A stretch of 38,743 bases of DNA, from the IMG/VR virus record IMGVR_UViG_3300025141_000279, positions 1-38,743 of that record; one strand, given 5' to 3'. Position numbers and translations under genes: made by a program. The notes beneath the pieces were generated by a model, which saw nothing but the letters and a program-made list of their open reading frames with translations, made no database searches and had not been told where the DNA came from. This document shows positions 17,210 through 37,013 of this stretch, piece by piece (within the stretch, counting starts at the first letter, position 1; each line of letters starts with the position of its first letter). This DNA comes from a virus.

Positions 17210-20200
17210 ATGGCTGAACAAACATTCAAGTCTCCAGGTTTTTTTGAGAAAGAAATAAACTTAACAGCTAGAGATCAACAAAAATTAGGGATACCTGCAG
17301 GTGTGATTGGTACCGCCAAGTCCGGACCTGCGTTTGTACCTATAACAGTTGGTTCAATGACAGAATTTGAGACTGTGTTTGGTGGACTAGATAGCGAGAA
17401 ATTCGGACCTTACGCAGTAAATGAGTTTTTAAAAAATAGAACATCATTGACATATATCAGAGTATTGGGTTGCGGAGCAAATGACTCAAAAGCAGACATA
17501 CTTACAACTCAAAAACAAGGAACTGCTAAAAATGCTGGATTTATTATTAAGGGAGACGTGGCAACTAATCACAATTCATTATCAACTCAGCAATATCACG
17601 CCGGATGTGTACAATTTCTTGTTGGAAATCATGAGATGCACGATAGTGCGATGGAAAGTACAGGGTACCCTATTTTTACTGATAATGATTCTTTTGGTTC
17701 GGGCCAGGCAAATATTGTAAGAGGAATGCTTTTCTTGTCATCGGGATCTAGATTTCAAATTGTTAATCATGACGACGCTTATAGCGACATAAGCGCTGTT
17801 TCACCCGAAATCACTAGGGCTTCAATATCTGCTTATAACAATGAGAACACGCAAGGTACTTTTAAACTAGTACTTTCTTCTTCTGCATCAGCTAATAATG
17901 ACGAAGGCTTTACAGGAATTAAAATCTTTACTGCTTCACTCAATCAAGATAGTGATTTTTACATTACTAAGATACTCAACACAGATCCAAAAAGATTTAA
18001 CGAAGAATATCACTTGCTCTATGCACATTTTCCTGTTGAGAATGAAATAGCAAGAATTAAGCACGTTACAACTGCCGGTTTAAAAGGTACTGTTGCAATT
18101 TTATCCGGATCGACAGATACATTTAGAGATAGATTTGGTAGATTTGACTCGAGATACAGAAATGCAAGAACTACTTCATTTATATCTCAGCCTTACGGAG
18201 AAGTAGAATATGATTTATTTCACTTTGAAACAATTGATGACGGTGTAGAGACTAGCACATTGTATAAAGTATCGATATCAAATATAAAAAGATCAATTGA
18301 CCCATTAAACCCGTACGGTACTTTTAATGTTGAAGTTAGAAATTATAGTGATAATGATAATAGTACAGAGATAATTGAAAGTTTTGTAGACTGTAATTTA
18401 AATCCAAATAGTGAAAATTTTATAGCTAGAAAAATCGGAGATCAAAAACTATTTTTTAATTTTGATGGTTTATCTGATGATGAACGTCGTTTAACACTAA
18501 CAGGAAAGTTTGATAATAGATCTAGATTCATAAGAGTTGTTATGAATGTTTCATTTGATGTTGAAGGTAATATCCCTAAAGATGCGCTACCTTTTGGATT
18601 TAGAGGAATCCCTGCTCTAATCACAAACGGATCGCTAAAAGATGAACCCACAGGATTAGAAAGATTAACTGGTAATTTAAGCGACGATGAAGATGCCATG
18701 TCTGCTATGAGTGGATCGATTTTACCACCAGTACCTATGACAATTAAAGCAACAAGTGGTCGTGTTAAGGAGTCACCTTCATTCGCCGGTGAGCCCGGAA
18801 GTGCTGAGGTTGCTGATGCTAATATTTATTGGGGAGTTAAGACAACAAGAATGCCTCACTCAGCAAGTTTTTCACTGAGTGCATTGGCTTCTAATGACTC
18901 AACAGTAAGAAATGAGTTGGTTGATAATTATATCAAGTTTTTAGGGCCTTACGGTGCAACATTAGATATAATGACAACAGGTTCTGCTTCAGATACGTTT
19001 AACAACAATAAATTTTCCTTGTCAAAGGTGGCATTCTATAATGTTGGTACAATTGCAACGCAATTTACTGCATCTGCAAATGATCATATTAAAGAAGCTA
19101 TGTACATAAGAAATGGTAAACCTGATGGTTCTGATTATCTTGTAACAGACAATGTAAGAAGTAGCAGAGTAACTCTAGCAAGTTTGGTGGCGCATTCAGA
19201 CGCTAAATATTTTAATAGATTTACTGCTTATAATAAGTTTACAAATGTATTTTACGGTGGATTTGATGGTTTGAATATTTTGGATCCGGATATGAGAAAG
19301 ATGAATGATAAGGCATGTTCAGATGAGCCTGGAGGTAAAGCAGTTTCAAGTGTTATTGCAAGAACAGGTTTACATTCAAGTTATACACCCGGTGTCGGCT
19401 TGAATAATAATCATATACGAGCTTACAGAACTGCTACAAAAATTCTACTTGATCCTTTAGTTTCAAATGTTAATATTTCTGCGATACCTGGGCAAAGAGA
19501 TCCGCTAGTTATTGATAATTTGGTAGAAAAAACAGAAGAATATGGTAAAGCAATAGCAATAGTCGACATACCTAATTACGAAGATAGTGACGGTTCTGAA
19601 GTCAGACTTTTTGATAATGATACCACAAACCCAAGTGTTAGAGTTACATCTGAAAAATTTGATTCACGTGCACTTGACAGCAGTTATGCTGCAACTTATT
19701 TTCCAAATGTTAAAATTGAAGATCAGAATACTAAAAGAATTCTCACAGTACCTGCAACAATTGCTGCATTAGGTGCACTTGGGTTTAACGATTCAGTTGC
19801 ATATCCATGGTTTGCTCCTGCAGGTTTCAATAGAGGCTCATTAGAATTTGTAAAGGGCACTAATTCACGATTAACTGCGGGGGATCGGGATACGCTATAT
19901 GAAGCAAGAATTAATCCAATTGCTAATTTTCCTAATAGTGGGTATGTTATATTTGGGCAAAAAACACTTCAATTTGCAAAAACATCATTAGATCGAGTCA
20001 ATGTTAGAAGGATGCTTCTTGAAGTTAGGCGCCTAGTATCAAACATTGCAAATCAAATACTTTTTGAACAAAATAATCAAGCAACAAGAAATCGTTTTAT
20101 ATCACAAGTTAATCCCCTGCTAGCTTCAATACAAAGTCAGCAAGGAATTGATTCTTTTAGAGTCATCATGGACGCGTCAAATAATACGCCGCAAGATGCA

Positions 20201-20305
20201 GAACAAAATAGACTTAACGGAAGAATAGTTTTAGTACCGACAAGAGCTGTAGAATTTATAGCAATTGACTTTATTATAACAAATTCAGGCGTAAGTTTTG
20301 AGTAA
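17210..20305 (+). CDS. Contractile tail sheath protein, copy 1 (T4 gp18-like)
   Basis: A 1031-residue sheath protein, against 659 in T4. The N-terminal FKSPGFFEKEINL, then IPAGVIGTAKSGPAFVPITVGSMTEFETVFGG and EKFGPYAVNEFLKN with YIRVLG, is the family opening. The C-terminal core contains YPWFAPAGFNRGSLE, RINPIANFPNSGYVIFGQKTLQ, SLDRVNVRRMLLEVRRLVSNIANQI and GRIVLVPTRAVEFIAIDFII, which pack on the tube and form the inter-subunit handshake. The extra length is in the middle (about residues 130-640), probably surface domains. AGAGGAG precedes the ATG. A second sheath gene follows after 30 bases. Confidence 0.95.
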   Translation: MAEQTFKSPGFFEKEINLTARDQQKLGIPAGVIGTAKSGPAFVPITVGSMTEFETVFGGLDSEKFGPYAVNEFLKNRTSLTYIRVLGCGANDSKADILTTQKQGTAKNAGFIIKGDVATNHNSLSTQQYHAGCVQFLVGNHEMHDSAMESTGYPIFTDNDSFGSGQANIVRGMLFLSSGSRFQIVNHDDAYSDISAVSPEITRASISAYNNENTQGTFKLVLSSSASANNDEGFTGIKIFTASLNQDSDFYITKILNTDPKRFNEEYHLLYAHFPVENEIARIKHVTTAGLKGTVAILSGSTDTFRDRFGRFDSRYRNARTTSFISQPYGEVEYDLFHFETIDDGVETSTLYKVSISNIKRSIDPLNPYGTFNVEVRNYSDNDNSTEIIESFVDCNLNPNSENFIARKIGDQKLFFNFDGLSDDERRLTLTGKFDNRSRFIRVVMNVSFDVEGNIPKDALPFGFRGIPALITNGSLKDEPTGLERLTGNLSDDEDAMSAMSGSILPPVPMTIKATSGRVKESPSFAGEPGSAEVADANIYWGVKTTRMPHSASFSLSALASNDSTVRNELVDNYIKFLGPYGATLDIMTTGSASDTFNNNKFSLSKVAFYNVGTIATQFTASANDHIKEAMYIRNGKPDGSDYLVTDNVRSSRVTLASLVAHSDAKYFNRFTAYNKFTNVFYGGFDGLNILDPDMRKMNDKACSDEPGGKAVSSVIARTGLHSSYTPGVGLNNNHIRAYRTATKILLDPLVSNVNISAIPGQRDPLVIDNLVEKTEEYGKAIAIVDIPNYEDSDGSEVRLFDNDTTNPSVRVTSEKFDSRALDSSYAATYFPNVKIEDQNTKRILTVPATIAALGALGFNDSVAYPWFAPAGFNRGSLEFVKGTNSRLTAGDRDTLYEARINPIANFPNSGYVIFGQKTLQFAKTSLDRVNVRRMLLEVRRLVSNIANQILFEQNNQATRNRFISQVNPLLASIQSQQGIDSFRVIMDASNNTPQDAEQNRLNGRIVLVPTRAVEFIAIDFIITNSGVSFE

Positions 20306-20335: not shown

Positions 20336-23300
20336 ATGGCAGAATTAATATTTAAAAGTCCGGGTGTAAGTACAAGAGAGATTGATCTTTCTGCGCCTAG
20401 TCAAGGTGTCACATCGACTGGTGTTCCGGCAGGTGTAATTGGTACTGCTAACGAAGGACCGGCTTTTATCCCTGTAACAATTCCTAACTTTGCACAATTT
20501 CAAAACATATTTGGTGCAAGTGATGGTGAAAAGTTTGGACCTATTGCAGTCTCTCAATGGTTGAAGAACGCTCAAGCTTGTACCTATATTAGAGTACTAG
20601 GCGTAGGTGATGGTAAGAAGCGTGACAATAGCACAGGTGTGGTAAATAGATCTGGATTTTTTGTAGGTGATCAAACAATACAAGATGATGGAAATCTTGG
20701 GCACAATACATATGCATTTCATCCTACAGGAGATGCTGTATTAGGTAGATCTTACTTTTTAGGTTGCTTCATGTCTGAGTCAAATGGTAGCACAATATTC
20801 AGCGATGCTGGAATACAGAAGGCTACAACATCAGCTGGAACAAAAGCTACTGCAGTAGATGCTATTGATACCACTGGACTCAACCGCACGTCTAGCCCGT
20901 CACTAATAGCGTTTAGCATTCCTAGTAGTCTCGGTGGTGAGAATGATTCACAGGTGACGTATATATTAATAAACAATGCAGACGACACAGGCGCCGGCCC
21001 AGCCGCAGGTAATACAATAGGTATTGGTATTGATACCGGTTCAGTGACAGAAGCACAGATTGCTGCAGCGATAATTGCTGCAATTAATGGGACAGCTCAT
21101 GCTAGAGTCACAAAAGCCGATTCGGGTGTTGGTGCTAGCACTGATGGTAATGTTCTCGGCATTACTGCGAAACAAGGTACCAGTGACACACAGATAACAT
21201 TAACAGCTGATGTAGGTGGGATTATAGGAAATATATCTAATGGTGTGGTACTCTCCTCCGGCTTCGATATAGTTGATGTTGAGAATTTTACAGGCGGAAT
21301 CGACGGTAACCACGCTGTTCCTATTCTTCGCGGTGTTCTTCTTGCGCCAAGTGGTGTTATTCTTCACTTAAGCTCTTCCCATGGAGTTAGTGGTTTACAC
21401 GGTCAGCCTGCTTCTAACTTAGGTGCTTCAGCAGACGGAATATTTGGTAGAAAAGGATCAGTTACAGGATCTGTTAATTTAAATAACCAAAATTTTGTGA
21501 TGCTATTAAACGGTCATAAAAATACAGCACAATTTCCTAATGTCATAACAGCATCATTTAACACAACATCAAAAAATTATTTTCCTAATAAATTTAATAC
21601 AGACCCGCTAAGAATAGAAAAAGCAGGACACTTACTTTATACAGATTATGGAATACATTCAAATTATGCATCTGTCACAGGATCTGGCGTAATATTAACG
21701 AATTTTAACGATTCAACATCAACAAAAACATTCGAACCTATTGCTTTTCTACTAACTTCTTCGAGAGGTAGAACAGAAACATCACCTACGTCTGTAATAC
21801 CATTGTACGAAGATTTTAGAGATAGATATAAAACAGCTGTTTCTCCTTACGTCATATCACAAAGTCCATCACAAAATCTTTTTAGATTACACGCACTTTC
21901 AGACGGTGAAGTTGCAAATGGTGTTTTTAAAATATCAATAGAAAACATTACAAGAATTAATTCTTCGAAATATCCTTCTTTCGATCTTACAGTTAGAAAG
22001 TTTGACGATACTGATGAACAAAAAGTTGTCCTCGAATCTTTTAGAAATATCAATCTAGATCCTGATTCTGATAGATATATTGCCAGAGCAATTGGCGATA
22101 TGCATACATTTTTTGAATTTGATAAGGATGAGTTATCGCAAAAGATAAATGTGTCTGGTAATCATCCGTCAAAATCAAACTATGTTAGAGTAGAGGTTGC
22201 AACAGGTGTTGAGAACAAGACTGTTTCTAAAGAAAGCATGCCATTTGGATTTAGAGGCCCTTTACAGGTAGTAACCTCTGGGTCAAGCGGTGTTGAAAAT
22301 CTTTGTAAAGATACTAGTAGTCATTTTGTCGAAAGTGATATATTAACACGTGTTATTCCGCCTCCTATACAATATAGACAAAATATTGCGCTAGGAACTG
22401 GTACAGCAAAGAGAGCAGCAAATAACTTATATTGGGGACCACAATTTAATACAGTTTCTTCATTAACAGAACCTAATAAGCAGACATTGTTCGATCCTAC
22501 GTTTAACTCTCTAGTTAAACCCTTTCCAACTCATAGAAAAGACGGAAGAAATGTTTATGAAGCTTCAGATGTAATAGGAAGAAATATATTCAATCTAGAA
22601 CATATTAGAGTTAGAACCGGTTCTGCTAGCGAAGAAGGTTCTGACTTAGCTGCGGATGTTGATAATTGGGTTAGTGCTTCTTATGTAAGAAGTGCTGCAG
22701 CAACGTCTATTACCCCTGTGGATGATGATAAAACAAGAGCATTTAGACCTGCTGATTTAGAAACTCCCGGAAATAGAAGATATGCTAAGTTTACTTTCTT
22801 CTTACAAGACGGCTCTGACGGAACTGATATTTTTAATGCTGATAAGAATAAAATGACAAATAACGCCATTAAAAGAGAAATTCAATTTGAGTCTAATTTG
22901 GGAGGCTCTAAAGGACCAACTGCATCGGCATATAAAAAAGCAATTGATATTATGAGCTCTAAAGCAGAAGTTGATATCAAGCTTTTAGCTATACCAGGTG
23001 TTAGAGTACCTGCTGTAACAAATCACGCAATATCTGCTGTAGAAAATCGATTTGATGCTCTATATCTTATGGATATTGAAGAATATAATAACTTGAATAC
23101 AATTGTTACATCATCTTCTGATTTTTCTAATGTTAAGTTTACAGTACAGGCATTCAAGAATAGAGGTTTAGACAGCTCTTTTGCTGCAGCATATTATCCC
23201 GATGTCATAATGAAAGATCCAACCACAGGTGGAGCTGTAAGTGTACCGCCAAGTGTTGCTGTATTAGGCGCTTTTTCGCTTAATGACGCAATTGCACATC

Positions 23301-23797
23301 CGTGGTTTGCTCCTGCAGGATTTTCTCGCGGTTCATTAGATTCTATAGAATCACTAGGTGTAAGATTATCTAGAAGAAACCTGGATGATTTATATGATGC
23401 AGATATTAATCCACTTACAGCTTTTCCAGGAACAGGAATTGTTGTTTTTGGACAAAAAACATTATTAGCAAATGCTTCTGCACTTGATCGTGTAAATGTT
23501 CGAAGACTCTTGATTAATGTTCGAAGATCAATCAGAAATATAGCAAATTCTCTTTTGTTTGAACCTAATAGACAAGAAACCTTAGACAGGTTTAATAGCT
23601 TGGTTAATCCAGTTATGCAGAGAATTCAAGAGCAAGGTGGGGTTGATCGTTATAAGGTAATTATTGATACATCAACAACAACACAAGCAGATGTTGAAAA
23701 TAATACAATACGAGGTAAGATATTCTTGCAGCCTACTCGTGCAGTTGAGTTTATAGCACTAGACTTTGTCGTAACAAATGCTGGCGCAGAACTATAA
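20336..23797 (+). CDS. Contractile tail sheath protein, copy 2, with an inserted domain
   Basis: A 1153-residue paralog of the preceding sheath. It has the same opening (FKSPGVSTREIDLSA, VPAGVIGTANEGPAFIPVTI, EKFGPIAVSQWLKN, YIRVLG) and the same C-terminal core (HPWFAPAGFSRGSLD, DINPLTAFPGTGIVVFGQKTLL, ALDRVNVRRLLINVRR, GKIFLQPTRAVEFIALDFVV). The middle has diverged. Residues about 159-324 are an insertion absent from copy 1, with a Gly/Ala/Thr-rich beta pattern and higher G+C. Both copies keep a complete core, so both could assemble into sheath, either mixed or as alternatives. GGAG precedes the ATG, and the tube gene follows at 28 bases. Confidence 0.95.
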   Translation: MAELIFKSPGVSTREIDLSAPSQGVTSTGVPAGVIGTANEGPAFIPVTIPNFAQFQNIFGASDGEKFGPIAVSQWLKNAQACTYIRVLGVGDGKKRDNSTGVVNRSGFFVGDQTIQDDGNLGHNTYAFHPTGDAVLGRSYFLGCFMSESNGSTIFSDAGIQKATTSAGTKATAVDAIDTTGLNRTSSPSLIAFSIPSSLGGENDSQVTYILINNADDTGAGPAAGNTIGIGIDTGSVTEAQIAAAIIAAINGTAHARVTKADSGVGASTDGNVLGITAKQGTSDTQITLTADVGGIIGNISNGVVLSSGFDIVDVENFTGGIDGNHAVPILRGVLLAPSGVILHLSSSHGVSGLHGQPASNLGASADGIFGRKGSVTGSVNLNNQNFVMLLNGHKNTAQFPNVITASFNTTSKNYFPNKFNTDPLRIEKAGHLLYTDYGIHSNYASVTGSGVILTNFNDSTSTKTFEPIAFLLTSSRGRTETSPTSVIPLYEDFRDRYKTAVSPYVISQSPSQNLFRLHALSDGEVANGVFKISIENITRINSSKYPSFDLTVRKFDDTDEQKVVLESFRNINLDPDSDRYIARAIGDMHTFFEFDKDELSQKINVSGNHPSKSNYVRVEVATGVENKTVSKESMPFGFRGPLQVVTSGSSGVENLCKDTSSHFVESDILTRVIPPPIQYRQNIALGTGTAKRAANNLYWGPQFNTVSSLTEPNKQTLFDPTFNSLVKPFPTHRKDGRNVYEASDVIGRNIFNLEHIRVRTGSASEEGSDLAADVDNWVSASYVRSAAATSITPVDDDKTRAFRPADLETPGNRRYAKFTFFLQDGSDGTDIFNADKNKMTNNAIKREIQFESNLGGSKGPTASAYKKAIDIMSSKAEVDIKLLAIPGVRVPAVTNHAISAVENRFDALYLMDIEEYNNLNTIVTSSSDFSNVKFTVQAFKNRGLDSSFAAAYYPDVIMKDPTTGGAVSVPPSVAVLGAFSLNDAIAHPWFAPAGFSRGSLDSIESLGVRLSRRNLDDLYDADINPLTAFPGTGIVVFGQKTLLANASALDRVNVRRLLINVRRSIRNIANSLLFEPNRQETLDRFNSLVNPVMQRIQEQGGVDRYKVIIDTSTTTQADVENNTIRGKIFLQPTRAVEFIALDFVVTNAGAEL
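20810..21307 (+). other. Domain insertion in sheath copy 2
   Basis: About 166 residues lie between TIFSDAG and NHAVPILRGVLLAPSG. In copy 1 the matching ends (PIFTDND and NIVRGMLFLSSG) are joined by only a few residues. The insert contains TYILINNADDTGAG, IGIGIDTGSVTEAQIAAAII and VENFTGG, a pattern that I associate with repeat domains found in various marine phage structural proteins. G+C is 52% in 20981-21060 against 27.5% in 21481-21560 (hand counts). Confidence 0.7.
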
Positions 23798-31346: not shown

Positions 31347-34300
31347 ATGACAAAAAAAACTGTATCGAATATACTAGACTTGAATTATGAATTAGCAATT
31401 GAAGAATTTAAAAAGATTATAACTGGGTTTGATTCAGATAGAGACAGGCTTATAACACAGAGTAAAAATGCAGGATCTATAGACTTAAAAAACCTAAAAA
31501 ATATCAATGCATTTCAAGATTTATCTAGTCAGGATGCGAAAGTATTAAATAGACTTATTGGGACAATATCGGGAGGTTACTATTTAAGAGACATGATAAC
31601 AGGTAAGGCATTCGCCGGGACAGGTATTAGAAGGAAAACAAAAAAACTTGAATCGGAATACCAGGAAGACGTTAAAAAATTAGCTAGGCAAAATTTTTAT
31701 TTTTATCATGATTCTGCTAGAAGAAAAGGTTTTAAACGATTAAATCTTAACATTAAAAATACAATGAAACATGGGAGCCAGGGGTTGAATCAACTTTTTA
31801 TAGATTCAGAAACAAAATCAGAGGGTGAACCAAGTGTTATTGATAATGTTTCTATAGGTGCAGTAGAGTTTACAAAACATACTTTAAGTTTAGCAAAAAG
31901 ATATGGAGATGCACTTAGCGTTTTCTATAATGCAATACCTAGTATTGAAATGTCACTATGTGCGCCTTATCTAAACGTAAAAATATTAGTACCTGAGAAT
32001 AATATAGATGTTAAAAGCATGAGTCATGAGGTTCAATTTAGATTTGAAAAACATACACCAAGTTCAGGTATGATAAGTAAACACTTGAATAAACTTAAAA
32101 TGAAAAATAACATTATGGGTGGTAATGAAACCAAATACGATCAGTTTGGAATGGAAAATTTTTTATCACCGCAAACACTAAGTAATTCTAATATAAGAAC
32201 TGCTGATAAAAATATCATTGAGCCAAATGCGCCCTTAATGACATTAAAAAATTGTAGCATAACTATAGCAGGAATGGGCGTTGGTTTATTTTGTAGTAAA
32301 AATGCTAGATTGGAATTTATTCTACATGACCGATCTAGACTTAGAGATATCGCACCTTTAGTATCCCCTAAGCAATTTGCTAAGTCTAGAGTTGTTTTAG
32401 AGTATGGCTGGAGTCATCCTCAAGGTGGCCCAACAAGCAGCAATGTTGTAGGTAGATTTTTAAATAGCTTGCGTGATAAAGGTGTTTTTATAGTAAAAGG
32501 ATCTTCTTTTAATTTTACTGATGGAGGGCATGTAAGTGTATCTGTAGATTTGGCTATGATGGGAAGCAAGATTCCTAAGACAGCTAGTGTTGCTGCAGGT
32601 GACTACGTACAATCATCAGTTTTTAAAAATGAAATGGAAGAAGTAGCTAGGCTTCTTAAAAAAGATGCTGCATCAAAACCTGAAGATCAGACTTTGCAAG
32701 AAGTAAGGAAAAAAGGAATAATTACAATATCTAATGCAAAAGGAATTAATTCTTTGATGGATAGGAAAACTTTTGAAGAGATTAAAAAATTAACAAATAA
32801 AGGTAATAAGGCAGGATATATAGCAGCAATTAGAAAGTATTTGAATGTTACTGACATTACGGGGGAAGATTTTAAAGAAAATATGGCTAAAAGCATAAAT
32901 GACGCGATTAGACAAAAGATATCTAGATTACCTTTCAATCATATTAAAAGCGCTCTAGAAGATAGACATTATAGTAAAGATAAAAATCCAGAGCCCGACG
33001 TGTTAACACCTGATGATCATTTTCTAAGAGAAAATGATGTGACTGTTTTAACAGACAATCAAATTGAAAAATCCAATCCTTTTACATCCCTAGGGAATGT
33101 CATAATGATGTTTGTTGCTTATCCACTAGCAGCAACATATCAATTTGAAGAAGTACAGGTGTTTTTCTATCCGTTTAATCAGCATAGTGCAGGAGCATAT
33201 GTTCACACGACTGCTTCTTTTCCTATATCTAAAAAAAGTTTAGAAAATTTATTTAAGTCTGCAGATGAGAAAGATACAAATCACATAAACATGTCTGTTA
33301 GTAGATTTATGTCAAAATTAGATTCAAAAATAATAAGAAATCCTGTATATGAGCATTATGGCATATCTGGCGTTTCGGCAAAAATAAAACTAATAAGTGA
33401 ATTAAGCAGTGAAGATTTAGCTGAGGCTAATGACTCAGAAATAGCCAATCTTGCTAGTATTGGTGTTACGCAGGAAATGATTGATACAGTTAAAGATGAG
33501 CAGTTAAGAATAAATGAAATATTAGATTTGTCTGATGAAAATATGGATAAAAAATCTAAGAATGCAGCAATTGCTAAATTAAATTCATTTAAAAAATTTA
33601 AAAAGCTATTAAAAGAATTAGCAATAAAACAGCGAAATGAAGCTCTAAAAACATTATATAAGAATTACAAACCTGATGATGTAAAAGAAAATCAATATGA
33701 CTTTTCTGAAGAGCCTAAATTTGTCTTGCCTAATCTAAGTTACTATTTTGAAACTGTCACACCTTATAATACATTAGGCGGAAAAGACGCACCATTACTC
33801 AAAAGCATAGCTAGCCAACTTAAAGAATCAAATTCAACTACTAGTGAAAATAAGTCTATACTTAGAATTCATGTTTATGATGAAGAAGCAATTGCCAATA
33901 AAAGTCAAGATTTAATGCTAACTCTTATGAATTCTAATGAGATAATGTCCGCTGAAGAAATGGGACGTTTACAATTTCTTAGACAGAAAAATAGATTTGG
34001 CTTAAACAAAAATAAAAAGTCACCTATTGATAACTTAACTTATAAAGATATAAAAAGAATTATTAAACAATCAATGCCCAGCATTACGTTAGGGAGTTCA
34101 ATGAGCAATGTAATGAATTTTTCTGCGCAGTCATCAACATCAAATGAAATAGCTAATACAATATTTATAACTGAACAGAGAGATTCAGGTGACGTTGGTA
34201 TTGGCCATCAAGGTGTTACGGCATTAGACAACTTAAGTGATATGATCGTTGTCCCTGCTGTTGGATCTTTAAGTTCTCCCGGTATGCCTCTTTTACAAAG

Positions 34301-34604
34301 AGCTCAGCAATTTTTTGTCGATGCGAATACAGGTACTACTATCGATTCGATATATACAATTCAGTCTGTCAATCATACAATTGGGGAAGGTGGTTTTAAG
34401 ACAACAGCTAAGCTAATCTATACCGGTCAAAATAGAATTGATACACTTAGAACAAAATTAAACGATTTAATAGAACCTAGCATGAATCTAGAACTTACTG
34501 AGAAACAAAAGCAAAGAAGAAATAAGAGACAGTCAAGAAAAAATGGTGTGAATTCTTTTAATTTAGGCGATATATCAAATATTACTTCGACTAAAGGATT
34601 GTAA
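31347..34604 (+). CDS. Large baseplate hub candidate
   Basis: A 1085-residue protein. Notable segments are NAIPSIEMSLCAPYLNVKILVPENN (about 195-220), LMTLKNCSITIAGMGVGLFCSKNARLEFILHDRSRLRDIAPLVSP (about 298-340) and VVLEYGWSHPQGG (about 350-362). Also present are MMFVAYPLAATYQFEEVQVFFYPFN (about 590) and GMPLLQRAQQFFVDANTGTTIDSIYTIQSVNHTIGEGGFKTTAKLIYTG near the C-terminus. The last resembles the barrel segment of hub proteins such as T4 gp27 and P2 gpD. Between about 690 and 780 a helical charged region interrupts the beta domains. It is last in the tail operon, 11 bases after the LysM gene. No lysozyme or needle motif is visible. Confidence 0.55.
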   Translation: MTKKTVSNILDLNYELAIEEFKKIITGFDSDRDRLITQSKNAGSIDLKNLKNINAFQDLSSQDAKVLNRLIGTISGGYYLRDMITGKAFAGTGIRRKTKKLESEYQEDVKKLARQNFYFYHDSARRKGFKRLNLNIKNTMKHGSQGLNQLFIDSETKSEGEPSVIDNVSIGAVEFTKHTLSLAKRYGDALSVFYNAIPSIEMSLCAPYLNVKILVPENNIDVKSMSHEVQFRFEKHTPSSGMISKHLNKLKMKNNIMGGNETKYDQFGMENFLSPQTLSNSNIRTADKNIIEPNAPLMTLKNCSITIAGMGVGLFCSKNARLEFILHDRSRLRDIAPLVSPKQFAKSRVVLEYGWSHPQGGPTSSNVVGRFLNSLRDKGVFIVKGSSFNFTDGGHVSVSVDLAMMGSKIPKTASVAAGDYVQSSVFKNEMEEVARLLKKDAASKPEDQTLQEVRKKGIITISNAKGINSLMDRKTFEEIKKLTNKGNKAGYIAAIRKYLNVTDITGEDFKENMAKSINDAIRQKISRLPFNHIKSALEDRHYSKDKNPEPDVLTPDDHFLRENDVTVLTDNQIEKSNPFTSLGNVIMMFVAYPLAATYQFEEVQVFFYPFNQHSAGAYVHTTASFPISKKSLENLFKSADEKDTNHINMSVSRFMSKLDSKIIRNPVYEHYGISGVSAKIKLISELSSEDLAEANDSEIANLASIGVTQEMIDTVKDEQLRINEILDLSDENMDKKSKNAAIAKLNSFKKFKKLLKELAIKQRNEALKTLYKNYKPDDVKENQYDFSEEPKFVLPNLSYYFETVTPYNTLGGKDAPLLKSIASQLKESNSTTSENKSILRIHVYDEEAIANKSQDLMLTLMNSNEIMSAEEMGRLQFLRQKNRFGLNKNKKSPIDNLTYKDIKRIIKQSMPSITLGSSMSNVMNFSAQSSTSNEIANTIFITEQRDSGDVGIGHQGVTALDNLSDMIVVPAVGSLSSPGMPLLQRAQQFFVDANTGTTIDSIYTIQSVNHTIGEGGFKTTAKLIYTGQNRIDTLRTKLNDLIEPSMNLELTEKQKQRRNKRQSRKNGVNSFNLGDISNITSTKGL

Positions 34605-34643
34605 ATAATTAATTATTTTAGTATTATTATTTTTGAGGTATTA

Positions 34644-35675
34644 ATGATAATATTAAAAAAAGAATTTAGTGGTTTTACAAAAGATATAAAGATTAATGTT
34701 CTTGATCATGATTGGGAAGCTGAATCAGAATATAATTTAAATAATTTATTATATCTTTACAATATAGAAGTAATAAAAGATATTAATAAAGAATATAATA
34801 AATTAATTTCTTTGGTTAATACTAATAATATTAATTACAAATATTTATTGGGAGAGAGAAAGTATATTGATAAAATAAATAAAGTTAAGATATCTTTAAA
34901 TAAGATTATGCATAAAGATAATTTAGAATATATTAACATCTTAGGAAGTAGAATAAACTTTACATCGAATTTTAGTAATTTTTCTTATAAGGGTAATGAA
35001 TACACACCTGGAATATATGATCACTTAACATCTTCAACTGGAAGAGTTAAGATTAAAAATGCAGATATTAACTTACTCACTCTTAAAAAAGAAGAAAGAA
35101 AAAATATAGATTCAGCGTATGTGGGAGGCAGGATATATGCAATTGATATCATATCTTTAGAACCTAGGGTTATGATGCATATGCAAGGTGTAAAGGGCAT
35201 TACAGACATATACACACATATACAGAGTAAATTAAGCAAAAATTATGAAAGATCCAAAATTAAAATAGGTGTAATATCAACTATATACGGGGGCGCTAAC
35301 AAGACTGTTAAAAGTGTTTCAGGGATAAGTTATTCTGACATTAAAATAATTAAAGATTACTTTGGAATACAAAAATTTATTGATCGTTATAAAGACAATA
35401 AAATAATTAGAAATTATTATGGCAGACCTATTAAAGTTACAAATGCCATAGTAAATCATTATATCCAATCATCTTCTGCAGATTGTGCAATTTTAGCATT
35501 TAATAAATTAATGAATGAATGGAAAAATTTAAGAGTTAATTTTATAGGTTTTATTCATGATGCCATAATTATAGATGTACATCCTGATCATTTTGATAAT
35601 ATCGAGAATTTAGAAGGAGTGTATGAGTCAAAAATGAATATAATACTACCAGTAAAAGTGGAGAAGATATCGTGA
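34644..35675 (+). CDS. Miniature family-A DNA polymerase-like protein
   Basis: A 343-residue protein carrying the palm-and-fingers core of Pol I-type polymerases. In order: STGRVKIKNADINLLTL (residues 130-146, Pol I TTGRL...PNLQNIP), motif A DIISLEPRVMMH (168-179, catalytic Asp168, Glu173, Arg175), motif B RSKIKIGVISTIYGG (Arg203, Lys207, Tyr215, with Ile at the Phe762 position), NHYIQSSSADCAILAF (271-286, Pol I N-x-x-QGTAAD) and motif C FIHDAIIIDV (303-312). Motif C keeps His305-Asp306 but has Ala in place of Glu883. No 3'-5' exonuclease domain is present, and only about 125 residues precede the core. The gene is extremely AT-rich and follows the tail operon. GAGG precedes the ATG. Active or degenerate status cannot be decided here. 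Confidence 0.82.
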   Translation: MIILKKEFSGFTKDIKINVLDHDWEAESEYNLNNLLYLYNIEVIKDINKEYNKLISLVNTNNINYKYLLGERKYIDKINKVKISLNKIMHKDNLEYINILGSRINFTSNFSNFSYKGNEYTPGIYDHLTSSTGRVKIKNADINLLTLKKEERKNIDSAYVGGRIYAIDIISLEPRVMMHMQGVKGITDIYTHIQSKLSKNYERSKIKIGVISTIYGGANKTVKSVSGISYSDIKIIKDYFGIQKFIDRYKDNKIIRNYYGRPIKVTNAIVNHYIQSSSADCAILAFNKLMNEWKNLRVNFIGFIHDAIIIDVHPDHFDNIENLEGVYESKMNIILPVKVEKIS

Positions 35676-36145
35676 AAAAAAAGAGTTTAAGCGAAATAAT
35701 GGGAGGAGGCGCAACAATAGGCGTTGGAGGGATGAATTCAGATGGTCCTCATAATCCTAGACATGTCTTTAAAAACCCAACAGGTTACCATACCGGTGGG
35801 TATACAGGAAATGCAGACAGTCAGATAAGTCAAAGGCATGCGTTATCTTCAACTTTAGATGAAGATGATGAATATATCGAAGAGGAAGACTTAATGGAAG
35901 AGGAAGGCTTGATGGAATTCTTTGCCCGTATAATAAAACTACCTTTAACAGAAAGTGATAAAAAAGAAATTGAAGAAATTGAAGATAACGATGAAGAAGA
36001 AGGAGAAGCAGTCAAAGAGATGTCAGCCGGCGGTGTAGCGGGAGTTGCGACTCCATTAGGTACAAATTCTAAGGGTAAAGTACCTAGTAAAAAAGAACAA
36101 AAAAATAGAATTAGACACGCAATTAAAACATTTAGTGGAAAATAA
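35672..36145 (+). CDS. Acidic, Gly-rich uncharacterised protein coupled to the polymerase
   Basis: A 157-residue protein starting with GTG that overlaps the polymerase stop by four bases (GTGA), behind GGAG, so translationally coupled. The N-terminus (KKKSLSEIMGGGATIGVGGM) is basic then Gly-rich. The middle is very acidic (DEDDEYIEEEDLMEEEGLMEF). After LPLTESDKKEIEEIED comes a Gly/Ala segment (EMSAGGVAGVATPLGTNSKG) and a basic end. LTE|S and similar triplets fit the prohead protease site. I do not recognise a family. A polymerase accessory or a packaged protein are both possible. Confidence 0.7.
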   Translation: MKKKSLSEIMGGGATIGVGGMNSDGPHNPRHVFKNPTGYHTGGYTGNADSQISQRHALSSTLDEDDEYIEEEDLMEEEGLMEFFARIIKLPLTESDKKEIEEIEDNDEEEGEAVKEMSAGGVAGVATPLGTNSKGKVPSKKEQKNRIRHAIKTFSGK

Positions 36146-36147
36146 TT

Positions 36148-36176
36148 TTGTAAATCATCTCTTTATGTAGTATTAT
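36148..36176 (+). promoter_or_regulatory. Sigma-70-type promoter for the ssDNA-binding protein
   Basis: TTGTAA (36148-36153), 17-base spacer, TATTAT (36171-36176): four of six and five of six consensus bases at ideal spacing. Transcription would start near 36183, giving a leader of about 63 bases before the gp32-like gene. Confidence 0.5.
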
Positions 36177-36189
36177 TAAGGTGTAATTC

Positions 36190-36245: not shown

Positions 36246-37013
36246 ATGCCGATAGATTTTGATGCTATTAGAGCTAAGCTTAATAAGTTAAGCGGAAACA
36301 ATAGAAATAGAAACACAATGTGGAGACCAACAGAAGGGGAAGAACATACAGTTCGCTTAATTTCTTTTCCTGACAATGATGGTCAACCTTTTAAAGAGTT
36401 GTGGTTTTATTACAATATTCCTAACCAAAGAGGATTATTAGCACCCTACCAGTTTGGTGATAAAGATCCAATTCAGGAACTTATTACTAAGCTTAGAGAA
36501 GATGGAGCTAAAGAGAGTTATGAATTAGCCAAAAAGCTTTATCCCTCAATGAGATGTTATGCTGCTGTTATTGTTAGAGGTGAGGAAGATAAAGGTGTAC
36601 AAATTTGGTCGTTTGGAAAAACTGTGTATCAAACATTACTCAACTATATGCTAGATGAAGATTATGGAGATATTACTGATCCCAAAGATGGTTTTGATAT
36701 TAAAGTTAACTGCAATAAGCGTCCAGGGCAGCAGTATGCCATGACAGAAGTTAGACCTAGGCCTAGATCTACAGCTTTGTCTAAAAATTCTAAAAAGACA
36801 AAAGAATGGATGGATAGTATTCCAAATCCGACAGAAATGTTTTCTTGCAAGTCTTACGAAGAATTGAGTGGTATAATCAATAATTGGTTGAATGGCGATG
36901 ATCAAGAAGATACTGGTACAGAGCGCTCATCAAGTAGTTCTAAAAATGAGAATAAAGAAACTAAAGCTTATTCTGATATTGATGATGCATTTGCAGATTT
37001 AATGGAAGATTAA
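36246..37013 (+). CDS. Single-stranded DNA-binding protein (T4 gp32-like)
   Basis: A 255-residue ssDNA-binding protein that coats and protects single strands in replication, recombination and repair. Residues about 1-30 form a basic N-terminal helix with Asn/Arg (KLNKLSGNNRNRNTMW). The core has GEEHTVRLISFPDNDGQPFKELWFYYNIP, YQFGDKDPIQEL, YPSMRCYAAVIVRGEEDKGVQIWSFGKTVYQTLLNYM, then DGFDIKVNCNKRPGQQYAMTEVRPRP. This is the OB-fold order of cyanophage and T4 gp32. The four-ligand zinc site of T4 (His and three Cys) is not visible. The C-terminus is a Ser/Glu linker and acidic end (DIDDAFADLMED), the usual partner-binding tail. A promoter and a strong terminator flank it. Confidence 0.9.
   Translation: MPIDFDAIRAKLNKLSGNNRNRNTMWRPTEGEEHTVRLISFPDNDGQPFKELWFYYNIPNQRGLLAPYQFGDKDPIQELITKLREDGAKESYELAKKLYPSMRCYAAVIVRGEEDKGVQIWSFGKTVYQTLLNYMLDEDYGDITDPKDGFDIKVNCNKRPGQQYAMTEVRPRPRSTALSKNSKKTKEWMDSIPNPTEMFSCKSYEELSGIINNWLNGDDQEDTGTERSSSSSKNENKETKAYSDIDDAFADLMED

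Follow-up and report, generated by a model that had tools for sequence, protein, structure and literature searches.

Phages that encode a further PolA on top of a regular PolA, PolB or PolC were described by Yutin et al. (2024, Virol J 21:200; PMC11348598), who reported the family divPolA1 in 14 phages, including the immuto phages. The divPolA1 proteins are putative polymerases that keep the palm residues, have a truncated thumb and an inactivated exonuclease and are encoded in a conserved replication neighbourhood (PMC11348598). In the literature that we searched, the name divPolA1 was used only in that paper and in its preprint. The divPolA2 of barbaviruses, known to us by description, is likewise a second, exonuclease-less PolA in a phage with another replicase, and differs in its variable gene neighbourhood, in a novel N-terminal domain that replaces the thumb and in having PolB as the regular polymerase (PMC11348598). 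Among cellular enzymes, one of the closest described systems is bacterial DNA polymerase I (PolA1), whose partners are a replicase of Pol III type and a FEN-type 5' nuclease, a setting similar to the one described below.

Here we analyze a viral DNA stretch of 38,743 nucleotides (IMG/VR record IMGVR_UViG_3300025141_000279), called the window throughout. Its plus strand encodes at 34644..35675, from ATG to stop, a family-A DNA polymerase of 343 amino acids, which we call mini-polA.

Identity and predicted fold of mini-polA

The mini-polA protein matched the Pfam family PF00476 (DNA_pol_A) with E = 3.4e-10, a score exceeding the curated cut-off, and no second domain was matched; among the PHROGs it matched the DNA polymerase group PHROG_17 (E = 6e-16). 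When a profile built from 34 relatives was compared with the PDB sequences, Pol I was found with E = 9e-17, the second-best match was human Pol nu (E = 1e-14) and Pol theta was also retrieved. These two human enzymes are family-A polymerases without working proofreading, yet they are cellular and much larger, and their likeness to mini-polA does not go beyond what unites the polymerase family as a whole. An AlphaFold2 model was obtained with a mean pLDDT of 90.8 and a pTM of 0.88, and the best matches listed by Foldseek against the PDB were large fragments of Pol I type (E = 5e-12). The whole-chain rmsd values were large (9-18 Å) because mini-polA lacks an equivalent for some stretches of Pol I, and weight was given to the E-values and to tighter partial alignments (4ktq, 5.0 Å over 263 columns).

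All the core family-A motifs were readable, with each residue exactly where the original prediction had placed it: TGR at 132-134, motif A with D168, E173 and R175, motif B with R203, K207, I211 and Y215, Q275, and motif C with H305, D306 and A307. The palm and fingers fold, the three motifs with the invariant D168 and D306 and the R203/K207/Y215 O-helix assign the protein to family A and not to the family-B replicases of T4 gp43 type. Its length, the Pfam search and the model agreed in a single-domain protein without an exonuclease domain, as had been predicted, and a relative of 399 amino acids likewise lacks this domain. A canonical Pol I is fused to a 5' nuclease and to a 3'-5' exonuclease-like domain, and both are absent from this 343-residue, one-domain protein. 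The thumb had been described as almost missing. It is indeed reduced, but this was a slight overstatement, since a short antiparallel helix pair (H71-88 and H91-108) is predicted in the thumb position, by which the thumb was assigned. The motifs are also closer together, with 35 residues between motifs A and B compared with 49 in the full phage PolA of CRP-3; the distance from B to C is shorter too. In summary, mini-polA has the fold and all the catalytic motifs of the polymerase domain of bacterial Pol I, and it differs in being phage-encoded, in the absence of a fused 5' nuclease or proofreading domain, in its shorter thumb and motif spacing and in the replacement of Phe by Leu or Ile at position 762 of the O-helix. 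The G+C content of the gene (24.7%) is the lowest in the area, where the neighbouring genes show 32-38% and the window as a whole 34.4%.

Conservation and selection

The homologues were aligned in 82 non-redundant rows, 81 of marine origin plus Microcystis phage Mel-JY01. Residues D168, E173, R203, K207, Q275, H305 and D306 of the window protein were invariant across the 81 marine relatives. In terms of Pol I numbering, the equivalents of D705, K758, Q849 and D882 were found in 82/82 homologues and those of E710, R754 and H881 in 81/81 marine ones. Two substitutions had been singled out as unusual. Both are present but neither is odd: at Ile211, the Phe762 position, Leu or Ile occurs in 76/82 rows, so we rejected this residue as a special feature, and Ala307, which follows the His-Asp of motif C, is Ala in 75/82 rows. 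Other phage PolAs show His-Asp-Ser or His-Asp-Gln at this place.

Between mini-polA relatives dN/dS was about 0.07-0.18 in pairs with enough differences to measure, while a value of 0.515 stems from pairs with almost no differences. The window's own pairs were excluded because even the closest full-length proteins share only about 50% identity with it. The purifying selection that had been anticipated is thus borne out, and decay is excluded by the excess of synonymous over non-synonymous change; moreover, an open copy of the gene was found in each of the 27 related contigs. Outside the motifs it diverges quickly. The median pairwise identity in the same genomes was 31% for mini-polA, compared with 64% for gp32, 75% for recA and 48% for FEN, a rate of divergence close to that of the upstream tail-region gene.

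A short member of divPolA1 and a second active-site type

A profile alignment of the mini-polA family with the proteins of Flavobacterium phage immuto and Mel-JY01 gave E = 5e-11, immuto gp001 being a described divPolA1 member, and a pairwise BLASTP test of P0001 against Mel-JY01 gave E = 2e-15. In an unrooted tree all the mini forms lay on one side of a branch with support 95/91. Since the family has been published and this homology links mini-polA to immuto gp001 and Mel-JY01, the window gene is read as a new, short member of divPolA1, an assignment that we regard as almost certain. The shortened thumb helix pair and the lack of an active 3'-5' exonuclease domain agree with the published description, as do the locus, which is common to the window gene and the immuto phages, and the replication genes downstream (gp32 in the window; gp32, recA, FEN and DnaB in the relatives and immuto). 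Two differences were noted. With 343 amino acids the window protein stands at the short end of the family, and its N-terminal exonuclease region is missing outright, compared with inactivated in divPolA1, where the exemplars other than immuto are known to us by description.

The phages immuto and Mel-JY01 and LR756508, an uncultured jumbo phage of 484 kb, encode proteins with His, Tyr and Tyr at the positions of E710, R754 and H881 of Pol I that retain D705, K758, F762, Y766 and D882. This His/Tyr/Tyr sister group (L088:1-1326, L002:11434-12660 and L206:5350-6705) occupies the same locus. As read from the sequences, the divPolA1 family has two active-site types, of which the window gene has the classical one, and because three catalytic positions differ in the sister group the family may lack one uniform function. 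New to divPolA1 in the present analysis are the invariant locus, the promoter class, the probably leaderless mRNAs and this sister group with changes equivalent to E710H, R754Y and H881Y.

The mini-polA locus

Upstream of mini-polA the plus strand carries the last gene of the tail/baseplate region (31347..34604), which encodes 1085 amino acids and whose tail assignment rests on its position because it had no Pfam match. The start of mini-polA lies 39 bp beyond this gene, which precedes the polymerase in 47/48 relatives with a median gap of 40 bp. Further upstream, two full-length tail sheath paralogues are adjacent, at 17210-20305 (1031 amino acids) and 20336-23797 (1153 amino acids); they are 32% identical (E = 1e-115) and could possibly form a two-component sheath. 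The annotations of Mel-JY01 and immuto show a single tail sheath each.

The end of mini-polA is overlapped by 4 bases by an acidic ORF of 157 amino acids on the same strand (35672..36145), for which no Pfam or PHROG match was found and whose profile matched in 45/79 relatives. It is followed at 36246..37013, also on the plus strand, by a gene for a gp32-like single-stranded DNA-binding protein (Pfam gp32, E = 2.8e-11; PHROG SSB, E = 1.7e-16). The genes between mini-polA and gp32 differ in number and kind among the relatives, and in Mel-JY01 an S-adenosylmethionine lyase-like gene is located there.

Scans of viral contigs with single proteins (P0001 and its 1085-residue neighbour) retrieved no relatives, the patterns being too specific, but those with gp32 relatives and with the polymerase family profile worked and yielded 320 and at least 422 loci, respectively. 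Wherever the flank sufficed, gp32 (61/61), recA (52/52), a FEN-type 5'-3' exonuclease gene (23/23) and DnaB (16/16) were found downstream of mini-polA; at the loci detected by the polymerase alone, and thus independently of gp32, the counts were 34/34 for gp32 and 30/30 for recA. The same order, mini-polA, gp32, recA, FEN and DnaB, was observed in immuto and Mel-JY01, and an identical one in LR756508. Hence, mini-polA heads the replication module in every relative that could be tested. In one relative, G005 (L105-L108), another gene for a FEN-type 5'-3' exonuclease lies elsewhere than in the module (Pfam 5_3_exonuc_N, E = 3e-16).

A promoter-like element shared with gp32 and recA

A promoter-like element, TTGTAAAT-N13-AGTATTATTA (TTGTAA-17-TATTAT), was located on the plus strand before mini-polA at 34599..34629, and is followed at about 34635 by a Shine-Dalgarno-like GAGG. 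The exact element has only two copies in the window, and the second one, at 36148..36178 on the same strand, stands before gp32. We then used a generalised motif, TG[TA]A[AC]A-N14-17-TANNNT, defined after inspection of the sequences and searched within 120 nt upstream of mechanically picked start codons, with expectations taken from shuffles. It was present before mini-polA in 44/79 relatives (3.4 expected), before gp32 in 60/75 (6.2 expected) and before recA in 42/71 (2.6 expected). Before two tail-region genes it occurred at chance level (2/59 and 1/58). Within one genome, the mini-polA and gp32 copies had an identical first hexamer in 23/35 cases against 10.5 expected, a figure to which relatedness contributes. 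A motif common to mini-polA, gp32 and recA and not to the tail genes suggests that mini-polA heads replication transcription units, although transcription may also continue into it from the tail genes, which end 39 bp upstream. According to the original prediction the polymerase closed the tail operon and might be carried in the virion; this promoter class and the conserved replication-module neighbours downstream support neither proposal.

The distance from the element to the start codon separated the relatives in two sets. In 29 of them only 5-8 nt separate the end of the second hexamer from the mini-polA start codon, and 27/29 have no Shine-Dalgarno-like sequence (for example L134, L185 and L193). 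In nine, including the window, it ends at least 16 nt from the start and a Shine-Dalgarno-like sequence is present in 9/9. This split is as expected from leaderless mRNAs in most relatives; the mini-polA mRNA is thus probably leaderless in the majority and has a longer leader with a Shine-Dalgarno sequence in the window and eight others.

The replicative polymerase in relatives of the window

The original prediction started from the premise that T4-like phages replicate with a family-B enzyme and suggested an extra polymerase beside the replicase. No other polymerase was found within the 38.7-kb window, so the question was taken to its relatives. The nearest large one, contig G001 (gp32 86% identical), encodes Pol III alpha, of family C, but lacks PolB, and ends before the mini-polA position. 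The 27 contigs with mini-polA, which are not all independent and of which several share near-identical genes, contain one mini-polA gene each; Pol III alpha was found in 20/27 and in all seven of those of 178-255 kb, and PolB (PF00136) and another PolA in 0/27. In contig G005, Pol III alpha shows PHP, NTPase, finger and helix-hairpin-helix domains. A full PolB accompanies mini-polA in Mel-JY01, and in immuto this place is taken by a full PolA that includes an exonuclease domain. The family-B premise therefore fails for this clade, whose replicase, judged from the sequences of the nearest relatives, is of family C, and the idea of an extra enzyme is supported in the relatives. Since these have Pol III alpha, PolB or full PolA, the mini-polymerase keeps its locus while the replicase family differs.

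For the same reason we dropped the idea of a split replicase formed by a polymerase half and a separate proofreading exonuclease. No stand-alone exonuclease of PolA or RNase T type was found in 16 records, except for the exonuclease domain of immuto's full PolA. RM378, which we had taken to be a model for a split PolA, was also rejected, as it has split PolB genes and no match to the mini-polA family.

Proposed function

We propose that mini-polA acts as a stand-alone palm-and-fingers domain of Pol I, with a short thumb and without a 3'-5' proofreading domain or 5' nuclease. From what is known of the family, it would be active, distributive and of low fidelity, working on short DNA stretches at gaps, and would most likely do what Pol I does when lagging strands mature and gaps are repaired. 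Copying of the genome would fall to the phage replicase (Pol III alpha in the nearest relatives) and trimming of the primers to the FEN-type exonuclease encoded a few genes downstream, while gp32 would cover the gap and mini-polA would fill it. In effect, Pol I would be split into separate genes, mini-polA and FEN, although the distance of several places between the two speaks against such a pair. By their position, the neighbours gp32, RecA, FEN and DnaB suit two tasks to much the same degree, the filling of gaps once primers have been removed and the extension of recombination intermediates; FEN as a partner and a replicase of Pol III type favour a Pol I-like role in gap filling. The main point against such a core function is the fast divergence of the gene, which is unlike that of a core maturation enzyme, and we give gap filling an even chance of being the main job of mini-polA.

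Pol nu, Pol theta and Pol IV provide the model for a different role, in translesion or recombination-linked synthesis, in which mini-polA would extend D-loops made by RecA or cross lesions that stall the proofreading replicase. Its position a few genes before recA and the promoter class that both have in common would fit this role, as would a short thumb without proofreading, the PDB sequence matches to Pol nu and Pol theta and a divergence that suits an accessory enzyme. However, the insertion loops that characterise Pol nu and Pol theta would hardly fit into 343 amino acids, the likeness to Pol nu is a general family-A similarity, and gp32 and FEN are linked to the gene equally with recA. 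We consider this role possible, though clearly less probable than gap filling. An unlikely alternative is that mini-polA is a replisome adaptor with weak or no catalysis that binds primer-template DNA through its polymerase fold. The His/Tyr/Tyr proteins of immuto, Mel-JY01 and LR756508, which keep the locus with three catalytic positions changed, and the quick divergence outside the motifs would be consistent with it, but the metal, triphosphate and steric-gate residues are all invariant in the 81 marine representatives, including the window.

The gene heads a replication module in a window that holds no other polymerase, as would a replicative polymerase that took its proofreading from another gene; this is very improbable, given that every relative with a largely covered genome has a full replicase of its own, from family A, B or C, and given the exonuclease search in the 16 records. 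Least credible of all are a protein of the tail operon or the virion and a transferred gene in decay, to which the 39-bp distance from the tail region and the low G+C content could point, because the gene has its own promoter-like element of the gp32/recA class, is kept open in its relatives and shows a dN/dS well below one with invariant catalytic residues.

Returning to gap filling, these findings may tentatively be read as a bacterial-style division of labour in a large group of marine T4-like phages, with Pol III alpha beside a Pol I split into polymerase and FEN. The mini-polymerase locus would be fixed while the replicase belongs to family A, B or C, the mRNA would be leaderless in most members and the active site of one sister group would be rebuilt for other chemistry or for a structural role; we hold this whole picture to be possible rather than probable. 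The divPolA1 family is extended from 14 described genomes to a widespread, strictly syntenic one in which the replicase varies over three polymerase families and the mini-polA locus stays constant. With a very small polymerase domain and complete catalytic residues, mini-polA is a candidate for a minimal enzyme of family A. The variant active sites in the immuto group amount to a natural experiment in which the E710 steric gate and R754 are altered. The family raises the testable question of why phages that already have a full replicase retain, at one locus, another polymerase that lacks proofreading.
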